Part shown: in pieces, positions 3,573 to 27,501 of the stretch
Position numbering within the stretch: position 1 is the stretch's first letter
Layout: each line of letters opens with the position of its first letter
NCBI GenBank assembly: GCA_030426085.1
Contig: JAUHYW010000024.1
Span: 1 to 64,000 of the forward strand
Source: a bacterium
GTDB lineage: Bacteria; Myxococcota_A; Bradymonadia; UBA7976; UBA1532
DNA length: 64,000 nt
Direction of reading: 5' to 3'
Position numbers and translations under genes: made by a program
The notes under the pieces: generated by a model
The model's input: only the letters and a program-made list of their open reading frames with translations
Databases searched by the model: none
What the model was told of the DNA's origin: nothing

Positions 3573-5522
3573 TCACCCGGGTGACGGGTCCCCGACCGTC
3601 ATCGGTGGCTCGAATGGCGCAGCCTCGTCACTCCAGGCGCTCATCCAGCCACCCTGCGCCTCGGCCTCTTCGGCGAAGGCGGCGAAGTCCGGGTGGGCCC
3701 CGAGGGTCGCGGTGTCGGCGATGACGAGCAGCAGCCGCCGGGCCCGGGTGAGGGCGACGTTGAGCCGGCGGCGGTCGGCGACGAAGCCGACGATGCCATC
3801 GGGGTTGCTGCGCACGAGGTCGAGCACGATGGCTTCTTTCTCCCGCCCCTGGAAGCCATCGACGGTGCCGATCTCGAGCCCGGCGGCGACCTCGGGGGCG
3901 AGCAGGTCCCGCAGCAGGCGGCGCTGGGCCCGATACGGCGTCAGCAGACCGATGTCGCCCGCCGGCAGCCCCCGGCCGATCAGGCGGCGGATCTCGGCGG
4001 CGGCCCGCTCGGCCTGCCCCGGGTTGCGCGCGCTGCCGGTCTCGGGGTCGACCGCCTCGTCCCAGCCCTTGCCGGCGGTGTCGACGAGCACGAGCGGCCC
4101 CGGGCGCAGCGGGTCGTCGGCCACGCCGAGGTCGGAGAGGCGCCGCCCGGCGACGGTGGGGTGGGCGGTGAGCCAGTCGCCGTAGCGGGTGCGCGAGGGG
4201 AAGCGCATCAGCGCGGTGGGCATGCGGTATTGGATCGTCAGGCGCTGCGCCGGGCTGCGGGCGGCGAGCCGTTCGAAGAGGGTCCGCCCCAGGCCGGCCC
4301 GCTCGGCGTCGGGGTCGATGATGGTCGGCGGGAGCTGCTCGGGGTCGCCGGCGAGCACGGCGGTCGGGGCCCGCAGCAGCGCCACCAACGCGATGGGATC
4401 GGGGGCCTGGGTCGCCTCGTCGAGCACCACCCGGTCGAAGCCCCGGTCGCGCAGCAGGTCGACGTCGGCCCCGGCGGCGGTGGCGCAGACGACGGGGGCC
4501 CGGTCGAGGATGGCGTCTTTGTGGCGGTCGAGCTGGATCCGGGCGTCGCGCCGCAGGCGGTCGGCCTCGCGCAGCGCCTCGCGGAACGCCCGGTGGTCCC
4601 CGCCCCGGTCGCGGCGCTTGAAGGCCCGGTCGCGCGCCTGGCGGGCCTCCTGCTGCCAGCGGCGGGCGAGGGTCCAGGCCTCGGTGGCTTCGAGCAGGGC
4701 GTCGAGCGTCCGGTCTTCGACGGCCGGGTCGACCCGCGCCGGGTGGCCGAGGCGCACGATGTCGAGGCCGGCGTCGACGAGCCGGGCGGCGAGGTGGTCG
4801 GTGGCGGTGTTGCTCATCGCGCAGGCCAGCACCTTCTCGCCCCGGGCCACCGCCCGCCGCACGATCTCGACCAGCGTCCGGGTCTTGCCGGTGCCCGGCG
4901 GGCCGTGGATCAGCGCCAGCGGGCGGGCGGCGAGCGCGTGGCGCACCGCGGCGCGCTGGGCCGGGTTCAGCGTCGGGTCGGGCTCGATCTCGATCGGGTC
5001 GAGCGCGATCGACGCCTCGCCGGTGAGCACCCGCCGCAGCCGCCCGGCGTCGCTGGCCGGCCTCGCGGCGGCGAGGGCCTTCAGCGCCCGGTGGCCCCGG
5101 GCGAAGGTGGCCTGGGGGTCGTCCCGGTCGATGTTGAAGTGGCCGGCGAGCAGCCGGTGGGGCACGTCGCCGTCGACCATGACCCCCACCCGGGGCGCGG
5201 CCCCGCCCCGGCGGCGGGCGAGCACGGCCCGGACGGCGTCCCGGTCGTCGGGGTCGGTCCACCACAGCCGCAGCGGGTCGCCGGGCTTGCCCCGGAAGTG
5301 CTCGAGGTCGCCGGTGAGCCACAGCAGCGTGCGGTCGCCGGGGGCCGGGGCGAGGTCGTCGACGGTCACGCCCGCGAGCGCGTCCCCCGTGGCGACCCGG
5401 GCGGCGAGCGTGCTCTGGCGGCGGCGCTCGACGACCCGGGCGGCGCCGGCGACCTGCTCCCGGCGCCAGAGGTCGGCGATGTGGTCGAGGTCGAAGTCGG
5501 GCGTGGCGGCAGCGTCGGGCAT
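3573..5522 (-). CDS. SF1 superfamily DNA/RNA helicase (IGHMBP2/Upf1-like)
   Basis: A 649-residue ATP-dependent helicase of superfamily 1B. Motifs in order: Walker A GPPGTGKT at about 207-214, Walker B DEATQ, GDPEQLPP (motif III), QYRMP (motif IV region), VDGFQGREKE (motif V) and NVALTRAR (motif VI). The first 180 residues form the accessory beta-barrel-like region usual in IGHMBP2/Dna2-type proteins. No nuclease domain is present. The DNA or RNA substrate and the cellular role cannot be told from sequence. Confidence 0.92.
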   Translation of the reverse strand: MPDAAATPDFDLDHIADLWRREQVAGAARVVERRRQSTLAARVATGDALAGVTVDDLAPAPGDRTLLWLTGDLEHFRGKPGDPLRLWWTDPDDRDAVRAVLARRRGGAAPRVGVMVDGDVPHRLLAGHFNIDRDDPQATFARGHRALKALAAARPASDAGRLRRVLTGEASIALDPIEIEPDPTLNPAQRAAVRHALAARPLALIHGPPGTGKTRTLVEIVRRAVARGEKVLACAMSNTATDHLAARLVDAGLDIVRLGHPARVDPAVEDRTLDALLEATEAWTLARRWQQEARQARDRAFKRRDRGGDHRAFREALREADRLRRDARIQLDRHKDAILDRAPVVCATAAGADVDLLRDRGFDRVVLDEATQAPDPIALVALLRAPTAVLAGDPEQLPPTIIDPDAERAGLGRTLFERLAARSPAQRLTIQYRMPTALMRFPSRTRYGDWLTAHPTVAGRRLSDLGVADDPLRPGPLVLVDTAGKGWDEAVDPETGSARNPGQAERAAAEIRRLIGRGLPAGDIGLLTPYRAQRRLLRDLLAPEVAAGLEIGTVDGFQGREKEAIVLDLVRSNPDGIVGFVADRRRLNVALTRARRLLLVIADTATLGAHPDFAAFAEEAEAQGGWMSAWSDEAAPFEPPMTVGDPSPG

Positions 5523-21492: not shown

Positions 21493-21906
21493 TCAGCCGA
21501 GGCGGTTGATGATGCGGGCGTAGAGCAGATCCTGGAGTTGCTTCTCGGTCAGCGGCAGGTAGCCCTGACCGCTGCCGCGCTGGGCGTAGAGGCGCCGCGA
21601 GGCGTCACCGGCCGCGCCCGGCTCGACCCGCACCACGGTCCAGGTCCCCTTCAGCTCGGGCCGGTTGCCCTTGATCTCGAAGCGCTGCCCCTCGCGGAAT
21701 CCGGCCAGCTCGGGCGCCTGCGATCGCGCCCGGGTCCGGGCCTCGGCGGCTTTCAGCTCTTCCCGGCGGCGCTCGACGGTGCTGGCCCGGCGGGCCTCGT
21801 CGAGCGAGCGGGCCATCGCGCCGGCCGCGGCCCGCTTGCGCGGGGCTTCGCGCTCGCGCGTGGCGTGGTCTTCGAGCAACTGGTCGAGCAGCGAGTCGTC
21901 GGCCAT
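21493..21906 (-). CDS. Small hypothetical protein with charged helical N-terminus
   Basis: 137 residues. The first half is a charged, probably coiled helix (LLDQLLEDHATREREAPRKR ... EELKAAEARTRAR). The second half is a small strand-rich domain (GQRFEIKGNRPELKGTWTVV ... SGQGYLPLTEKQLQDLLYAR). No signal peptide or membrane segment. ATG 21906 follows a G-rich stretch. I do not recognise a family; it stands alone between SurE (divergent) and the pseudokinase (convergent). Confidence 0.6.
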   Translation of the reverse strand: MADDSLLDQLLEDHATREREAPRKRAAAGAMARSLDEARRASTVERRREELKAAEARTRARSQAPELAGFREGQRFEIKGNRPELKGTWTVVRVEPGAAGDASRRLYAQRGSGQGYLPLTEKQLQDLLYARIINRLG

Positions 21907-22024
21907 CGATCCCCCCCGGGCGTGTCTGTCCTCGGGGTCAGCATGGCCCGCACACCGACCCCGGCGCAACCCGGGCGGGCCCCCGGTCGTCCCTGTCCTG
22001 CGCTCGGCGACCGTGGAGGTGTAC

Positions 22025-22813
22025 ATGACCCGGCCGGTGGTGCTCGTCACCAATGATGACGGCATCCGATCCTTCTTCCTCGAGGTGCTGGTCGAGGCGC
22101 TCGAGCGCCGCTTCACCTTGCGGGTCGTCGCGCCCCTGCGCGAGCAGAGCTGGACCGGGCGCAGCTTCACCCGCCGGGGGCCGGTCACCGTCGCGCGCCA
22201 CCCCGGCCTCGGCGGGCGGGCGTGGGCGGTCGACGGGACCCCCAGCGACTGCGCCAACATCGGCCTCGACCCGGCGTTCGACCCCGGCAGCCCGCCGCCG
22301 GTGGCCGTCGTCTCGGGCATCAACCTCGGCTTCAACGTGACCCTGCCGCTGGTGCTCAGCTCGGGCACCGTGGCCGCCGCGACCGAGGGCGCGCTGGCCG
22401 GGCTGCCCGCGCTGGCCTTGTCGCAGCTCATCCCCCGAGATCGGTTCGAGGCGCTGCGGGAGACCGGCGGCCGGGGGGACGCCGCGCTGGCTCGGGATGT
22501 GCGAGCGTCGGCCGATCGAGCGGTGGCGTTCACCGAGGCCCTCATCGCCCGGGGCCGACCGGAGCGCCCGATCGTGCACAACCTCAACTTCCCGAGCGGG
22601 GTGACCGCCGAGACGCCCATCGAGCGTACCCGGCTGGGCCGCGCCTCCCTCGGCCCGTGCTTCGTGCAGGAGAAGGACGGCGTGCGCCGCTTCGGGCTCG
22701 CCCGGCGGGCGAAGACCCCACCGATGGCCGACGACACCGACTGGATGTGCCTGAAGCGAGGGCACATCAGTCACACGGTGCTGGACTACTCCACCTTGGG
22801 CGCGACGGTCTGA
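22025..22813 (+). CDS. surE: 5'/3'-nucleotidase SurE
   Basis: A 262-residue SurE-family phosphatase acting on nucleoside monophosphates, a metal enzyme of the stationary-phase survival family. Key marks are the N-terminal LVTNDDGI, which binds the metal, and SGINLGFN followed by SSGTVAAATEGAL. The start at 22025 has ggagg upstream. The 3' end overlaps the convergent histidine-kinase gene by 28 bp. In many bacteria surE lies beside pcm or nlpD; neither is present here. Confidence 0.9.
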   Translation: MTRPVVLVTNDDGIRSFFLEVLVEALERRFTLRVVAPLREQSWTGRSFTRRGPVTVARHPGLGGRAWAVDGTPSDCANIGLDPAFDPGSPPPVAVVSGINLGFNVTLPLVLSSGTVAAATEGALAGLPALALSQLIPRDRFEALRETGGRGDAALARDVRASADRAVAFTEALIARGRPERPIVHNLNFPSGVTAETPIERTRLGRASLGPCFVQEKDGVRRFGLARRAKTPPMADDTDWMCLKRGHISHTVLDYSTLGATV

Positions 22814-24357
22814 CCCTCGCCGCCGGACCGGCGGGGCAGCTCGATACACGCCTCGATCCAGCCGTCCGGCGCGGATGTCAGCCGCGCCTCGCCTCCGTGA
22901 GCCCGGGCGATGGCCCGCACGATGTACAGACCCAGGCCCAGGCCACGGCTGTTGTTGCCCCCGTCGTGCGCCCGGCGGAACGGCTCGAAGATATGGGCCA
23001 GGCGCTCGGGCGGGATGGGCTCGGCCCGATTGCGCACCGTCAGGCGCACCCGGCGCCCGTCCCCGTCGGCGTCGAGGATGAGCGGCGCGTCGGGCCGGCC
23101 GTAGCTGAGCGCGTTGGCCAGCAGGTTGCCCAGCGCCTGCACGAGCCGGTCGGCGTCGACCTCGACCGAGAGCGACTGCGGGCCCTGGACCACCACCTCC
23201 CGCTCGGGGTGGGTCACCCGGCTCTGAGCGGCGAGCTCTTCGAGGATACCCCGGGCGTCGACCGGCTCCCGCTCCCCGATCAGCTCGGCGCCGAGCTGGG
23301 TGCGGGTGTAGTCGAGCAGCGCGTCGATCATGCGCCGGCTGCGGTCGACGTTCTCCACGATCTGGGTCAGATAGCGCGCCCGGCGCTCGGCGTCGTCCCC
23401 GTGGTCGAGCAGCATGCGGGCGGCGGTGCCGATGAACCACAGCGGCGAGCGCAGGTCGTGGCCGACCACGCCCACCATCCGATCGCGGAACTCGATGAGC
23501 CGGGCCTGCTCGATCTCGCGCAGCTTGGTGTCGTGGATGTCGGTGATCGCCCCGATCCACTCCCGGCGCTCGCCGCCCTGCTGGTGCGGCCGACCGTGCA
23601 TCAGCACCCAGCGCTCCCGGCCCCGGGCGCCGATGAGGCGGCATTCGACGCGGATGGGCGAGCCGGCCTCGACCGCCGCCCGCCACTCTTCGCGGACCCG
23701 CGGTCGATCGAGCTCGATGATCGCGTCGAACAGCATGCCCGGACGCGCCGCCGAGCGCCCGGTCATCGACGTCCAGCGGGGGTTGACGAAGCGCAGTCGC
23801 CCGTTGTCGTCGCTGCGCCACACCACGTCGGGCAGCACCGCGAGCACCGTGCGGTGCACCGACAGCAGCCGCTCGCGGCCCGCCTTGGCCACCTCGAGGG
23901 CCGCCATCGCCGTCTGCAGCCGGCGGTTCTCGGAGTAGAGGGCGGTCACGTCGTCGCCGACCTGCGCGCTCGCCAGCTCGGAGCGCAGGCGCCCGATGAC
24001 CTCGGGCAGAATACGGCCGGCGGGCGGCACGAGGCGCAGGCGGACCTCGGTGCCCGACAGGTCGGACGTCAACCGGCAGTCGGCCACCAGCCGCCGGGCG
24101 CCGTCGGCCAGACCGGGATCGATCAGGCCCGAGGTGACCAGATCCAGGATCAGCGTCTCGCCCGAGCCGAGGCCGATCACCGCCTCGCCGCCCCCGGCGT
24201 CGAGCACCGCCCGGGCCACGTCCGACGCGGCCGTGGCCCAGCGGGTGCGGGTCAGCGCCCCGGCACCCACGATCTCGCTGGCCTGCTCGATGCGCTTGCG
24301 CAAGACCACCAGATCCCGCGAGGTGCGCAGCGACCAGCGCAGCATCGTCTCGATCAT
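22786..24357 (-). CDS. PAS histidine kinase with RsbT-like pseudo-domain
   Basis: A 523-residue soluble sensor kinase. Residues 1 to about 150 resemble the RsbT ATPase next door (WATAASDVARAVLDAGG against LATAASELGRNAVIHGK), but the N-box Glu and Asn are Asp and Ala and the G1 box is missing, so this part is probably inactive. A PAS domain (WRSDDNGRLRFVNPRW ... WIGAITDIHDTKLREIEQAR) follows, then HisKA with VGHDLRSP and HATPase_c with NLLANALSYG and GLGLGLYIV. Its ATG overlaps the upstream gene (ATGA), so it is last in the stressosome operon. Confidence 0.85.
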   Translation of the reverse strand: MIETMLRWSLRTSRDLVVLRKRIEQASEIVGAGALTRTRWATAASDVARAVLDAGGGEAVIGLGSGETLILDLVTSGLIDPGLADGARRLVADCRLTSDLSGTEVRLRLVPPAGRILPEVIGRLRSELASAQVGDDVTALYSENRRLQTAMAALEVAKAGRERLLSVHRTVLAVLPDVVWRSDDNGRLRFVNPRWTSMTGRSAARPGMLFDAIIELDRPRVREEWRAAVEAGSPIRVECRLIGARGRERWVLMHGRPHQQGGERREWIGAITDIHDTKLREIEQARLIEFRDRMVGVVGHDLRSPLWFIGTAARMLLDHGDDAERRARYLTQIVENVDRSRRMIDALLDYTRTQLGAELIGEREPVDARGILEELAAQSRVTHPEREVVVQGPQSLSVEVDADRLVQALGNLLANALSYGRPDAPLILDADGDGRRVRLTVRNRAEPIPPERLAHIFEPFRRAHDGGNNSRGLGLGLYIVRAIARAHGGEARLTSAPDGWIEACIELPRRSGGEGQTVAPKVE

Positions 24358-25397
24358 CGCTCGGCCTCCTCGGCCGCCAGGACGACGCACGCCGCGTCGT
24401 CGGTGCGCCGGAGATGATCCCGCAGGATGCGCCCGGCGAGCAGCGGCGGGTCGGTGCGTCGCCGGCTGCGGCGCACGCCGGCCCGCCAGCGCTCGGAGAT
24501 CCCGTCGGTGTGCACGATGAGCCGCGCGCCCGGGCCCCAGGGGTGGCTCGCCGCCCGGACCGTGCCCACCGGGGCGCCCGATCCGAGCACGCCGAACCGG
24601 GGCACCAGGGACGCCGACTCCTCGCCCCGCTCGTAGAGCGCGGCCACGTTGCCGACCCCGGCGAAGGTCAGCTCGCCCCGGCGCAGATCGATCGTCGCGA
24701 CGGTCGCCGCCGCCCCCCGGGTCCCGATCAGGCCCCGCTCGAGGTCGTCGATCATCGCCACCGGCGCCTCGGACCCGCTCTCGGCCGCGCAGCGCAGGGC
24801 CCGCTCGGCGGCCGTCGCCGCGCCGGGGCCGTGACCCAGCCCGTCGACCACGATCAGCCGGATCAGGCCCCCCAGGCAGTCGATGCGCCAGCCGTCTCCG
24901 CTCACCGACTGCCCGGGGAACGGCCGAGCCGCCACGCCCAGGCGCAGCCCGAGGGGCGGCGGCGGCCCGAGGCGGGCGAAGAGGGCGGTGCCCTCCCCGG
25001 GGCGGGTGTGCAGCGAGTGGGCGTCGGACAGCCGGCGGATTGCGCCCAGCCCGATGCCGGCGGTGCCGGTCGTCGAGAAGCCGTCGGCGAAGCACCGGGC
25101 GGGATCCTCCATACCCGGGCCCTGATCGAGCGCGAGCAGCTCGATGGCCGGGCCGATGCGCCGGGTGAGCTGCCAGCCGGTGCCCCCGTGGCGCACGACG
25201 TTGGAGGCCATCTCGGAGGCGACGATGGCCGCCTCCTCGGCGCGATGCCCCGGCCAGCCCAGGCCCTCGGCGAGCGCGCGGGTGGCCCGGCGCACCTCGC
25301 CGATGCGGCTCGGGTGGTCCAGCCAGCGCGCGGACTCGTCCAAGCTGTGCGCCCACCAGCGATCGGCCTTCACGCGTAACTCCTCGTCAACACTCAC
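24354..25397 (-). CDS. RsbT-like kinase fused to RsbX-like phosphatase
   Basis: A 347-residue fusion. The N-terminal GHKL ATPase keeps the N-box (ASEMASNVVRHGG), G1 (DQGPGMED) and G2 (TGTAGIGLGA), as in the Ser/Thr kinases RsbT and RsbW. The C-terminal half is a small PP2C-type phosphatase with metal-binding Asp in VVDGLGHG and HTDGISE, as in RsbX. One chain could thus both add and remove phosphates on STAS-domain proteins. The GTG at 25397 overlaps the stop of rsbT (GTGA). RsbX and RsbT are normally separate proteins. Confidence 0.85.
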   Translation of the reverse strand: MSVDEELRVKADRWWAHSLDESARWLDHPSRIGEVRRATRALAEGLGWPGHRAEEAAIVASEMASNVVRHGGTGWQLTRRIGPAIELLALDQGPGMEDPARCFADGFSTTGTAGIGLGAIRRLSDAHSLHTRPGEGTALFARLGPPPPLGLRLGVAARPFPGQSVSGDGWRIDCLGGLIRLIVVDGLGHGPGAATAAERALRCAAESGSEAPVAMIDDLERGLIGTRGAAATVATIDLRRGELTFAGVGNVAALYERGEESASLVPRFGVLGSGAPVGTVRAASHPWGPGARLIVHTDGISERWRAGVRRSRRRTDPPLLAGRILRDHLRRTDDAACVVLAAEEAER

Positions 25398-25792
25398 CGA
25401 CGCCAGCGGACCACGGTGATCCGGGTCCCTTCTCCGGCGCCGCTCTCGATCTGAAAGCTGTGGACCAGCCGTCGGGCACCGCCGAGGCCGAACCCCATGC
25501 TGCCGGTGGACGAGAAGCCGTCCACCAGCGCCTGCTCGATGTCGGGGATCCCCGGGCCCTCGTCCCGGAACTCCAGCCGGATGCCGGCCCCCTCGTCGAG
25601 CCGCTCGAGCGTCATGCGGCCGCCCTTCCCGTGGATCACCGCGTTGCGCCCCAGCTCGCTGGCGGCGGTGGCCAGCCGCACCGCGTCGGCGCTGCGGAAG
25701 CCGGCGGAGCGGGCGGCGGCGTGCACCGCGCGGCGGGCGTCACCGACGTCCCGCGTGGCCTTCAGCGGCCAGAACTCGCGCTCGGAGGGCAT
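25394..25792 (-). CDS. rsbT: Stressosome switch kinase RsbT
   Basis: A 132-residue GHKL-type Ser/Thr kinase. N-box (ASELGRNAVIHGKGG), G1 (DEGPGIPD) and G2 (STGSMGFGLGGARRLV) are complete and the length is normal for RsbT. In the stressosome paradigm RsbT is held by RsbR/RsbS, phosphorylates their STAS domains on stress, is released and activates a downstream partner. In Bacillus that partner is RsbU; here no RsbU is present. The start follows gagg by seven bases and lies 22 bp after rsbS. Confidence 0.9.
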   Translation of the reverse strand: MPSEREFWPLKATRDVGDARRAVHAAARSAGFRSADAVRLATAASELGRNAVIHGKGGRMTLERLDEGAGIRLEFRDEGPGIPDIEQALVDGFSSTGSMGFGLGGARRLVHSFQIESGAGEGTRITVVRWRR

Positions 25793-25814
25793 GACGGGGC
25801 CTCGTCCTCGGCGG

Positions 25815-26183
25815 TCACGGGCTCTCGGCCAGCAGCGCGTGCAGGCGGGCGATCCCCCGATCGATGTCCAGCGCCGTCGAGACGCCGTCGAGCGTCATGC
25901 CCAGCTCGACGAGGGTCACCGCGACCGCCGGCCGCATGCCCACCAGCACCGCCTCGGCGCCCAGCACCCGGCTCATGGACGCGATCTGCGCCAGGATGCG
26001 GCTGAGGAACGTGTCGACCAGCTCCAGGCCGGAGATGTCGATGATGATGCCCCGGGCGCTCGACCGAGCCAGGGCCGCGCCCAGGTCTTCTTCGAGCTGC
26101 ACCGCGAGCTGGTCGTCGAGGTCGACCTGCACCGTCACGAGCAGCGCCCCCTCCAGCTCGAGGATCGGGATCCGCGGGGTCAA
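25815..26183 (-). CDS. rsbS: Stressosome STAS scaffold RsbS
   Basis: A 122-residue single STAS-domain protein. IDISGLELVDTF contains the Ser phosphorylated in RsbS (Bacillus Ser59 region), and GMRPAVAVTLVELG is the second hallmark. The start is taken as TTG at 26183, because it overlaps the rsbR stop as TTGA with ggagg upstream and no ATG or GTG gives a full-length N-terminus. It forms the core of the stressosome shell together with RsbR. Confidence 0.88.
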   Translation of the reverse strand: MTPRIPILELEGALLVTVQVDLDDQLAVQLEEDLGAALARSSARGIIIDISGLELVDTFLSRILAQIASMSRVLGAEAVLVGMRPAVAVTLVELGMTLDGVSTALDIDRGIARLHALLAESP

Positions 26184-27019
26184 TTCGCGGCGCCTCCCGA
26201 GACCAGGAGGCCGCCCCGGCGAAAGGCGAGCTTGAGCGCGTCGGACAGCCGGGCCTTGGTCACCACCTGCCCCAGGTCCACGCCGAGGTGCACCATGGTC
26301 TGGGCGATCTGGGGCCGGATGCCGCTGACGATGGCCTCGGCCCCCATCAGGCGCAGCGCGGCGACCGTCTTGAGCAGGTGATGGGCCACCTGGGTGTCGA
26401 CCGTCGGCACGCCGGTGATGTCGAGGATGACCTGCTCCGAGCGGGTCTCGACGACCGCCTCGAGGATGGTCTCGGTCACCTGCTGGGTGCGGTAGCTGTC
26501 GAGGGTGCCGATGAGCGGCACCGCCAGCACACCGTCCCACACCTGCACCACCGGCGACGACAGCTCGAGGATCTCCTCCTGCTGGCGGGCGATGACCTGC
26601 TCTTTGCGTCGGATCTGGATCTCGGCGGTGTACAGCCCCAGCCGATCGACGATCAGATCGACCCGCCAGATCACCCGGAGCATGTCGTCGGGCTCACCGC
26701 CCCGCATCACGAGCAGCCGATGCAGGGGGCGCTTGATCGACATCACGAAGAAGGCGATGTCGGCCGGGGCCTTGCCCTCGTCGAGGTGGGTGTCGACGAT
26801 GGCGTCGAGCGTCTCGCGCACCCCGGACCACGGGGCGCTGCGCACATCCTCCGGGCGGGTGTCGTCGTCGATGGACTGCCCGAGCTGCTCGATGAACGAC
26901 CGGGCCTGCAAGCGACGCTCGTGGGCCAGCTCGGGGCGGGCCCGGCTGACCCGGTCGGCGGCCTCGAGCCAGTCGTCGAGCAGCGCCTCGGCGTTCTCAC
27001 CGATGAGGTCGGAGATCAT
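26180..27019 (-). CDS. rsbR: Stressosome sensor RsbR
   Basis: A 279-residue protein (293 if the start is ATG 27061). The N-terminal half is a helical RsbR-type sensory domain (NAEALLDDWLEAADRVSRAR ...) without heme or flavin motifs that I can see. The C-terminal STAS domain is nearly textbook RsbR: DITGVPTVDT and SGIRPQIAQT contain the two Thr sites phosphorylated by RsbT. ATG 27019 has aaaggg six bases upstream; 27061 lies four bases after the receiver gene. Only one RsbR is encoded here, whereas Bacillus has several. Confidence 0.88.
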   Translation of the reverse strand: MISDLIGENAEALLDDWLEAADRVSRARPELAHERRLQARSFIEQLGQSIDDDTRPEDVRSAPWSGVRETLDAIVDTHLDEGKAPADIAFFVMSIKRPLHRLLVMRGGEPDDMLRVIWRVDLIVDRLGLYTAEIQIRRKEQVIARQQEEILELSSPVVQVWDGVLAVPLIGTLDSYRTQQVTETILEAVVETRSEQVILDITGVPTVDTQVAHHLLKTVAALRLMGAEAIVSGIRPQIAQTMVHLGVDLGQVVTKARLSDALKLAFRRGGLLVSGGAAN

Positions 27020-27065
27020 GTAGAGCCCTTTCGGAAAGTCGGTGTCGGCGGGACGTCGCATGGGA

Positions 27066-27437
27066 TCAACCGTTCGCTGCGGCCCGCCGGGCGGGCAGGT
27101 GACGCCTCAACCAGTCGGCGAGCAGCTCGACGCCGACCGGCTTGATCGCCGCGTCGAACCCGTCGGCGCGCAGATCCTCGATCGCCTCGGCGTCACCCGA
27201 GACGATGAGCACCGGCAACGACAGCTCGCGGGCGAGGCCGGCGAGGGCCCGGCCGTCGGTGCACCCCCCCAACACGAGATCGGTCACCAGCGCGCCGTAG
27301 CGCCCTTCGGCGAGGCGGGCGGCCGCGTCGGCGCCGGAGCCGCACCAGTCGACCGCGAAGCCTTCGCACTGGAGGATGTCGACGATGAGCGCGCCCATGT
27401 CGGGCATGTCGTCGACGAAGAGAACGGTATTGGACAC
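27066..27437 (-). CDS. Single-domain response regulator
   Basis: A receiver domain of 123 residues with no output domain. Acidic pocket VDD near the N-terminus, phospho-acceptor Asp in VTDLVLGG, Ser in IVSGDAE and Lys in AIKPVG are all present. The GTG at 27437 with ggggag upstream gives a normal receiver length; ATG 27476 would add 13 residues. It is the first gene of the stressosome operon, and the histidine kinase is the last, suggesting that they form one phosphotransfer pair. Confidence 0.85.
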   Translation of the reverse strand: MSNTVLFVDDMPDMGALIVDILQCEGFAVDWCGSGADAAARLAEGRYGALVTDLVLGGCTDGRALAGLARELSLPVLIVSGDAEAIEDLRADGFDAAIKPVGVELLADWLRRHLPARRAAANG

Positions 27438-27501
27438 AGTCACTCCCCGGGGGTGCGGTGTATGCGTCTGATTCATGGTCGAGCGCCGCCGTCGCGTCTC
27501 C

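Follow-up and report, generated by a model that had tools for sequence, protein, structure and literature searches.

In the SigB pathway of Bacillus subtilis (RsbRST-UVW-SigB-X) the kinase RsbT acts on the RsbU_N domain, and histidine kinases (HKs) bearing RsbU_N have been reported in stressosome operons (PMC12143880). For stressosomes outside the SigB lineage, Heinz et al. (2022, PMC9237108) have already described modules of RsbR, RsbS, RsbT and RsbX (RSTX) followed by proteins with HisKA and receiver (REC) domains; they detected RsbU_N in only some of the proteins downstream and were unable to show binding of RsbT to the kinase of Vibrio vulnificus. The subject here is an operon of six minus-strand genes at 22786-27437 of a 64,000-nucleotide stretch (the window; positions 1 to 64,000 of contig JAUHYW010000024.1, assembly GCA_030426085.1) from a bacterium of the Bradymonadia (Myxococcota_A). 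It encodes, in this order, a receiver, RsbR, RsbS, RsbT, a fusion of RsbT with RsbX (RsbT-X) and a HK, all intact and each assigned with the backing of Pfam. An earlier note, made from the sequence alone, had described this order and span, which open reading frames and Pfam bear out, and had proposed a stressosome that feeds into a histidine kinase and a receiver rather than a SigB switch; the local parts are indeed present and no SigB branch was found, but a system of this kind had already been published. Since the N-terminus of the HK went unrecognised, the note missed the widely shared unit, which ends in a HK carrying an RsbT domain (RsbT-HK).

The VvRsbRSTX-VvD1-VvD2 system of V. vulnificus (Heinz et al. 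2022) likewise combines RsbR, RsbS, RsbT and RsbX with HK and receiver proteins and has no SigB. Its published description gives a single-domain PP2C RsbX, a globin-sensor RsbR and downstream links that are either RsbU_N or none found, whereas in the window RsbX and the HK each have an RsbT domain and RsbR has an RsbRD_N domain. The HKs and GGDEF proteins with RsbU_N (eLife 2025, PMC12143880; Moorella MtG) also possess an N-terminal module and a linker, thought to bring the effector under stressosome control, but in these RsbU_N is the receptor of RsbT, while the HK of the window bears the RsbT fold itself in a genome in which no RsbU_N was found. With the B. subtilis pathway the locus has in common the shell proteins, the kinase RsbT and a feedback phosphatase, but RsbU, RsbV, RsbW and SigB were not found in the genome. 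The closest solved folds to residues 1-112 of the HK are those of RsbW and SpoIIAB, which bind STAS partners; unlike them, this domain forms the front part of a HK and has lost the N, G1 and G2 boxes. No description of RsbT domains on HKs was found in the open-access literature searched; reviews of 2005 and 2017 (Pane-Farre and others) lie outside it and an earlier mention is possible.

Residues 1-112 of the HK constitute the third RsbT domain of the operon. Pfam names no domain in residues 1-167 and gives no RsbU_N in the HK at E<=1; an RsbU_N identity for the N-terminus was rejected, as there is none in the HK (Pfam) or in the genome. A profile built from 28 sequences, the RsbT of the window and those of 27 relatives, matched the first 60 residues and one later strand, and also the N-termini of the HKs that follow RsbX in L008 (the sister locus), L009, L051, L052, L069 and L070. 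When profiles were drawn from named loci only, with the window and the sister excluded, residues 1-140 scored 41.7 bits with that for RsbT-HK (64 domains), 30.3 with that for RsbT and 0.8 with that for the RsbT-X domain, the best of 1000 shuffled sequences reaching 11.5, 9.2 and 9.2, respectively. Among the control HKs of the same loci, labelled 'other', 63 of 64 scored 3.3 bits or less with the RsbT-HK profile, and the 64th, in L009, itself follows an RsbT-X whose X domain was missed by the labelling threshold. An AlphaFold2 model of residues 1-165, for which 51 sequences were aligned (the window's and 50 of 73 named RsbT-bearing next genes), has a predicted local distance difference test score (pLDDT) of 93.7. 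The top Foldseek matches of the predicted domain were SpoIIAB, a SigF/anti-sigma complex and RsbW, and the top VIA-align match was the RsbW of an RsbV/RsbW complex (Z 14.6 over 102-107 residues at 1.9-2.0 A); SpoIIAB, too, ranked far ahead of the catalytic domains of HKs, which gave Z values of 7.6 or less. In the alignment the N-box Asn is replaced by Ala50, the G1 box, ATP lid and G2 box are gone, and 15 residues stand in place of the 32 of RsbT in the lid and box region. The hallmarks of a two-component pair are in place, namely HisKA His300 (invariant in 64 of 64 RsbT-HKs) and HATPase_c in the HK and the phospho-acceptor Asp66 in the receiver.

A FastTree phylogeny of 273 domains separated the three paralogues, with 91 RsbT rows in a pure clade, 101 of 102 RsbT-X rows together (clade support 0.95) and 59 RsbT-HK rows together, leaving 11 RsbT rows and 11 RsbT-HK rows, the window's included, outside. 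Long branches make it unsafe to rely on the position, outside the clean HK clade, of the degenerate HK domains from this phylum and of some others. The ATP-binding motifs are intact in 55 of 70 RsbT-HKs and depart in 15, among them the window's, so that intact motifs do not define the group. The N-box Asn is kept in every stand-alone RsbT (102/102) and RsbT-X (101/101) and in 59 of 70 RsbT-HKs. Of the 11 losses, six are in the window's phylum, two in Desulfomonile and one each in Anaerolineae, Actinoplanes and Duganella; four further RsbT-HKs keep the Asn and have an altered G1 or G2. On a tree of 61 loci (9 of them losses) derived from RsbR, RsbS, RsbT and RsbT-X, parsimony counts five changes. 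The 11 HK domains without the N-box Asn all keep Ser45 and Arg49, and 10 of 11 keep Arg20 and 10 of 11 Arg39; Ser45 and Arg49 are common to RsbT (100/102 each) and mostly not to RsbT-X, and Arg20 is also common to RsbT. Judged from the alignment, the residues kept in these domains are RsbT-like outside the nucleotide-binding Asn.

The spread of the architecture was followed by searching for relatives with five RsbT-X proteins, the best 80 of 434 being taken, all of them named loci. In this sample the gene after RsbT-X begins with an RsbT domain in 73 of the 77 loci with enough downstream sequence (3 end early), in most cases with an overlap of a few bases between the two genes; 64 of these genes have a scored HK core and nine do not, Pfam showing a HK in two of the nine (L133, L152). 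Complete sets of RsbR, RsbS, RsbT, RsbT-X and an RsbT-bearing next gene were found in 62 of the 80 loci, spanning 15 named phyla and one unassigned record, with about half in Cyanobacteriota, and the widely shared unit is RsbR-RsbS-RsbT-(RsbT-X)-(RsbT-HK). Of 64 RsbT-HK proteins, among which the window's is counted but has no receiver, 49 include a receiver domain; that it is fused in relatives and separate here supports, indirectly, a pairing of HK and receiver in general. The full six-gene order, with the receiver first and the kinase last, is a narrower matter. Its absence from relatives had been named as a refuting observation; it does recur in the sister locus L008, but is otherwise approached only in L065, where the first gene is a receiver of low similarity and the sequence ends inside RsbT-X, and it was rejected as a widely conserved unit, being complete only in L008. 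In the window's family an RsbT-X match at E <= 1e-10 was obtained in 2 of the 13 genomes listed, the window's and the sister's, and in 0 of the 11 others. A draw of 377 genomes from the phylum gave 58 that matched the RsbT-X query at the same threshold, in many cases with just RsbX or just RsbT, and arrangements there are mosaic: a HK with an RsbT domain is present in L008, L009, L051 and L052, and accompanies an unfused X in L069 and L070, while in some further loci the HK lies ahead of RsbR or none was found. The HK ahead of RsbR in L049, L053, L056, L057, L061, L063 and L064 is often on the opposite strand and has no detected N-terminal RsbT domain. An unfused layout with several RsbTs is seen in L066, L067 and L045-L048, where the order is R-S-T-X followed by a second RsbT-like protein and the T carries about 100 extra N-terminal residues.

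A SigB branch might have been encoded elsewhere, and a homologue of SigB or RsbU outside the operon, as the sole target of this RsbT, had been named as one observation that would overturn the proposal; the assembly, which is 95% complete with 10.1 Mb in 178 contigs, was searched and, within that completeness, neither was found. RsbU_N gave 0 matches genome-wide, the B. subtilis control being positive, and the SigBFG model never rose above its cut-off of 234 bits anywhere in the assembly. Its four best matches, all under that cut-off, scored 139 and 128.5 bits (the two on C169 and C22), 105.6 and 81 bits; the latter two were read and are stand-alone sigma factors of the FliA and RpoH types. HATPase_c_2 exceeded its cut-off at 8 places, with the window's RsbT and RsbT-X best and a HK third, and together with STAS searches it revealed no free RsbW or RsbV in the genome. 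The absence of RsbU, RsbV, RsbW and SigB that had been noted locally thus extends to the whole of the 95%-complete assembly, and a SigB switch elsewhere in the genome was rejected on these grounds. Elsewhere in the genome the STAS domain occurs in SulP transporters, in an MlaE permease and in one 271-amino-acid protein, which adjoins a HAMP-SpoIIE phosphatase on C67 (L076 5740-8652) as a separate pair resembling a partner switch; no gene for an RsbW-type kinase to go with that pair was seen among the HATPase_c_2 matches.

In a genome that gave no RsbU_N match, the simplest link between stressosome and kinase would be the binding of the HK's own RsbT fold to the shell. The reading that we consider somewhat better than evenly supported is that the operon is an RSTX-type stressosome with a two-component pair as output, in which the HK is seated on the STAS shell through its RsbT fold and has its output set by phosphorylation of the shell. 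RsbR and RsbS would be expected to form the shell, and RsbT would be the active kinase that phosphorylates them; two clients, RsbT-X as feedback phosphatase and the HK, would dock by way of RsbT folds of their own. The copy on the HK, having lost its nucleotide-binding motifs, probably binds without phosphorylating. At rest this pseudo-RsbT domain would hold the HK on the shell in competition with RsbT, and under stress RsbT would phosphorylate Thr223 of RsbR and Thr58 of RsbS, so releasing the clients with an RsbT fold. Release may then be signalled through the helical linker and PAS domain to the HisKA core, resetting the flow of phosphate to the receiver, and RsbT-X would return the shell to its starting state. 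In a wider form, on which we regard the balance as even, the RsbT fold would be a portable docking tag of stressosomes, present three times in a widespread module, on free kinase, feedback phosphatase and output HK, such that one shell could take up the kinase, the eraser and the output next to one another; the output copy, here and in several other genomes, would be an ATP-less pseudokinase in which docking has been split from catalysis. If true, such a tag would answer how stressosomes without SigB reach two-component outputs without RsbU_N. An RsbT domain fused to a kinase is a concrete and directly testable link between stressosome and output, and the natural HK copy that lacks ATP motifs could be used to tell docking from phosphorylation.

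A number of points weigh against shell docking of the HK through its RsbT fold. Four named loci (L082, L141, L147, L154) have a HK next to RsbT-X that is without an RsbT domain, and in L011, L043 and L044, from the window's own phylum, an adjacent HK has no detectable one, so that these seven loci show that the domain is not required everywhere. The sample, chosen as the best 80 of 434 by similarity to RsbT-X, says nothing of modules with a plain RsbX. Well-supported (starred) branches of the 61-locus tree force only one change, which makes repeated loss of ATP binding likely rather than proven. The receiver, standing alone without an output domain, must act on another protein. Finally, the degenerate HK copy may be no more than a remnant. 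In the strongest form of this last argument the domain would be decaying, with the HK now responding to the signal of its own PAS domain and the operon no more than co-expressed; the loss of the ATP motifs and lid and an identity of 66% between window and sister in this region are what would be expected, but a fold predicted with high confidence and the retention of RsbT residues not concerned with nucleotide make such decay improbable.

The main rival to docking on the shell keeps a function for the domain and changes its partner. The anti-sigma kinases SpoIIAB and RsbW each form dimers, and the RsbT-like domain of the HK might pair in this GHKL manner with RsbT or RsbT-X, in which case RsbT, on leaving the shell, would bind the HK and switch it. 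The match of the predicted HK fold to these dimer-forming proteins is consistent with such pairing, as is the behaviour of B. subtilis RsbT, which once released works by binding a downstream N-terminal domain (PMC12143880); the domain bound there, however, is the helical bundle RsbU_N, for which this genome gave no match, and we regard GHKL pairing as possible but doubtful. Direct Ser/Thr phosphorylation of the HK or the receiver by RsbT, through a transient contact, would make the RsbT-like N-domain incidental. Such a route has been put forward for sensor kinases that follow modules of the V. vulnificus type, where RsbU_N was not found (PMC9237108), but it does not account for the N-domain of RsbT fold seen in 73 of 77 loci and there seems little likelihood that it applies here.

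The genes of the operon are listed in Table 1. RsbR consists of an RsbRD_N sensor domain and a STAS domain and has both Thr223 and Thr255, sites conserved in 96 and 98, respectively, of the 98 proteins compared. The STAS phospho-sites had been called intact, which is correct for RsbR, but the comparison of sites gives Thr58 instead of Ser in RsbS, where 101 sequences divide into 92 with Ser, 8 with Thr and one gap. This Thr is common to the window, the sister and six more loci of the same phylum (L049, L050, L057, L058, L063, L064). The N, G1 and G2 boxes are retained in both RsbT and RsbT-X, so that the ATPase boxes are intact there as had been claimed; RsbT-X joins an RsbT-like ATPase domain (amino acids 29-139) to a PP2C/SpoIIE phosphatase domain of the RsbX type. 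The receiver has Asp22/Asp23, Ser93 and Lys112 in addition to Asp66, numbered from an upstream ATG at 27476 that is a possible alternative start; the GTG start is backed by the sister locus, where the orthologue (5103-5471, 147 bits) begins at the matching Val.

Table 1. Genes of the operon and domains of the histidine kinase, in window coordinates.
Feature	Position	Strand	Evidence
Receiver (REC)	27066-27437	-	Pfam Response_reg 1.6e-10; L008 orthologue
RsbR-like	26180-27061	-	RsbRD_N 1.3e-8 and STAS 4.9e-16
RsbS-like, single STAS	25815-26183	-	STAS 1.1e-10; TTG start
RsbT, GHKL protein kinase	25394-25792	-	HATPase_c_2 1.2e-13; profile score 145 bits
RsbT-RsbX fusion (RsbT-X)	24354-25397	-	HATPase_c_2 and SpoIIE 1.1e-11
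HK: degenerate RsbT domain, helical linker, PAS, HisKA, HATPase_c	22786-24357	-	Pfam, profiles, AlphaFold2
HK amino acids 1-112, RsbT-fold domain	24022-24357	-	RsbT-HK profile 41.7 bits, AlphaFold2, structure match
HK amino acids 113-165, helices 118-130 and 135-164, linker toward PAS	23863-24021	-	DSSP of model
HK PAS domain, amino acids 171-277	23527-23847	-	PAS_3/PAS_4/PAS matches
HK catalytic core, HisKA and HATPase_c	22831-23487	-	Pfam; His300

Four of the genes had been described as joined by 4-bp overlaps; there are in fact three such overlaps (RsbR/RsbS, RsbT/RsbT-X and RsbT-X/HK), which fall into two groups, with spacings of 4 bp between receiver and RsbR and 22 bp between RsbS and RsbT. 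A scan of the operon stretch for promoters and terminators gave no match, its GC-richness making the scan uninformative. The divergent upstream neighbour, from 27640, is presumably serS-like, a name that we take from its sequence, and at the other end a plus-strand open reading frame (21665-22813) converges on the HK gene, the 3' ends overlapping by 28 bp.

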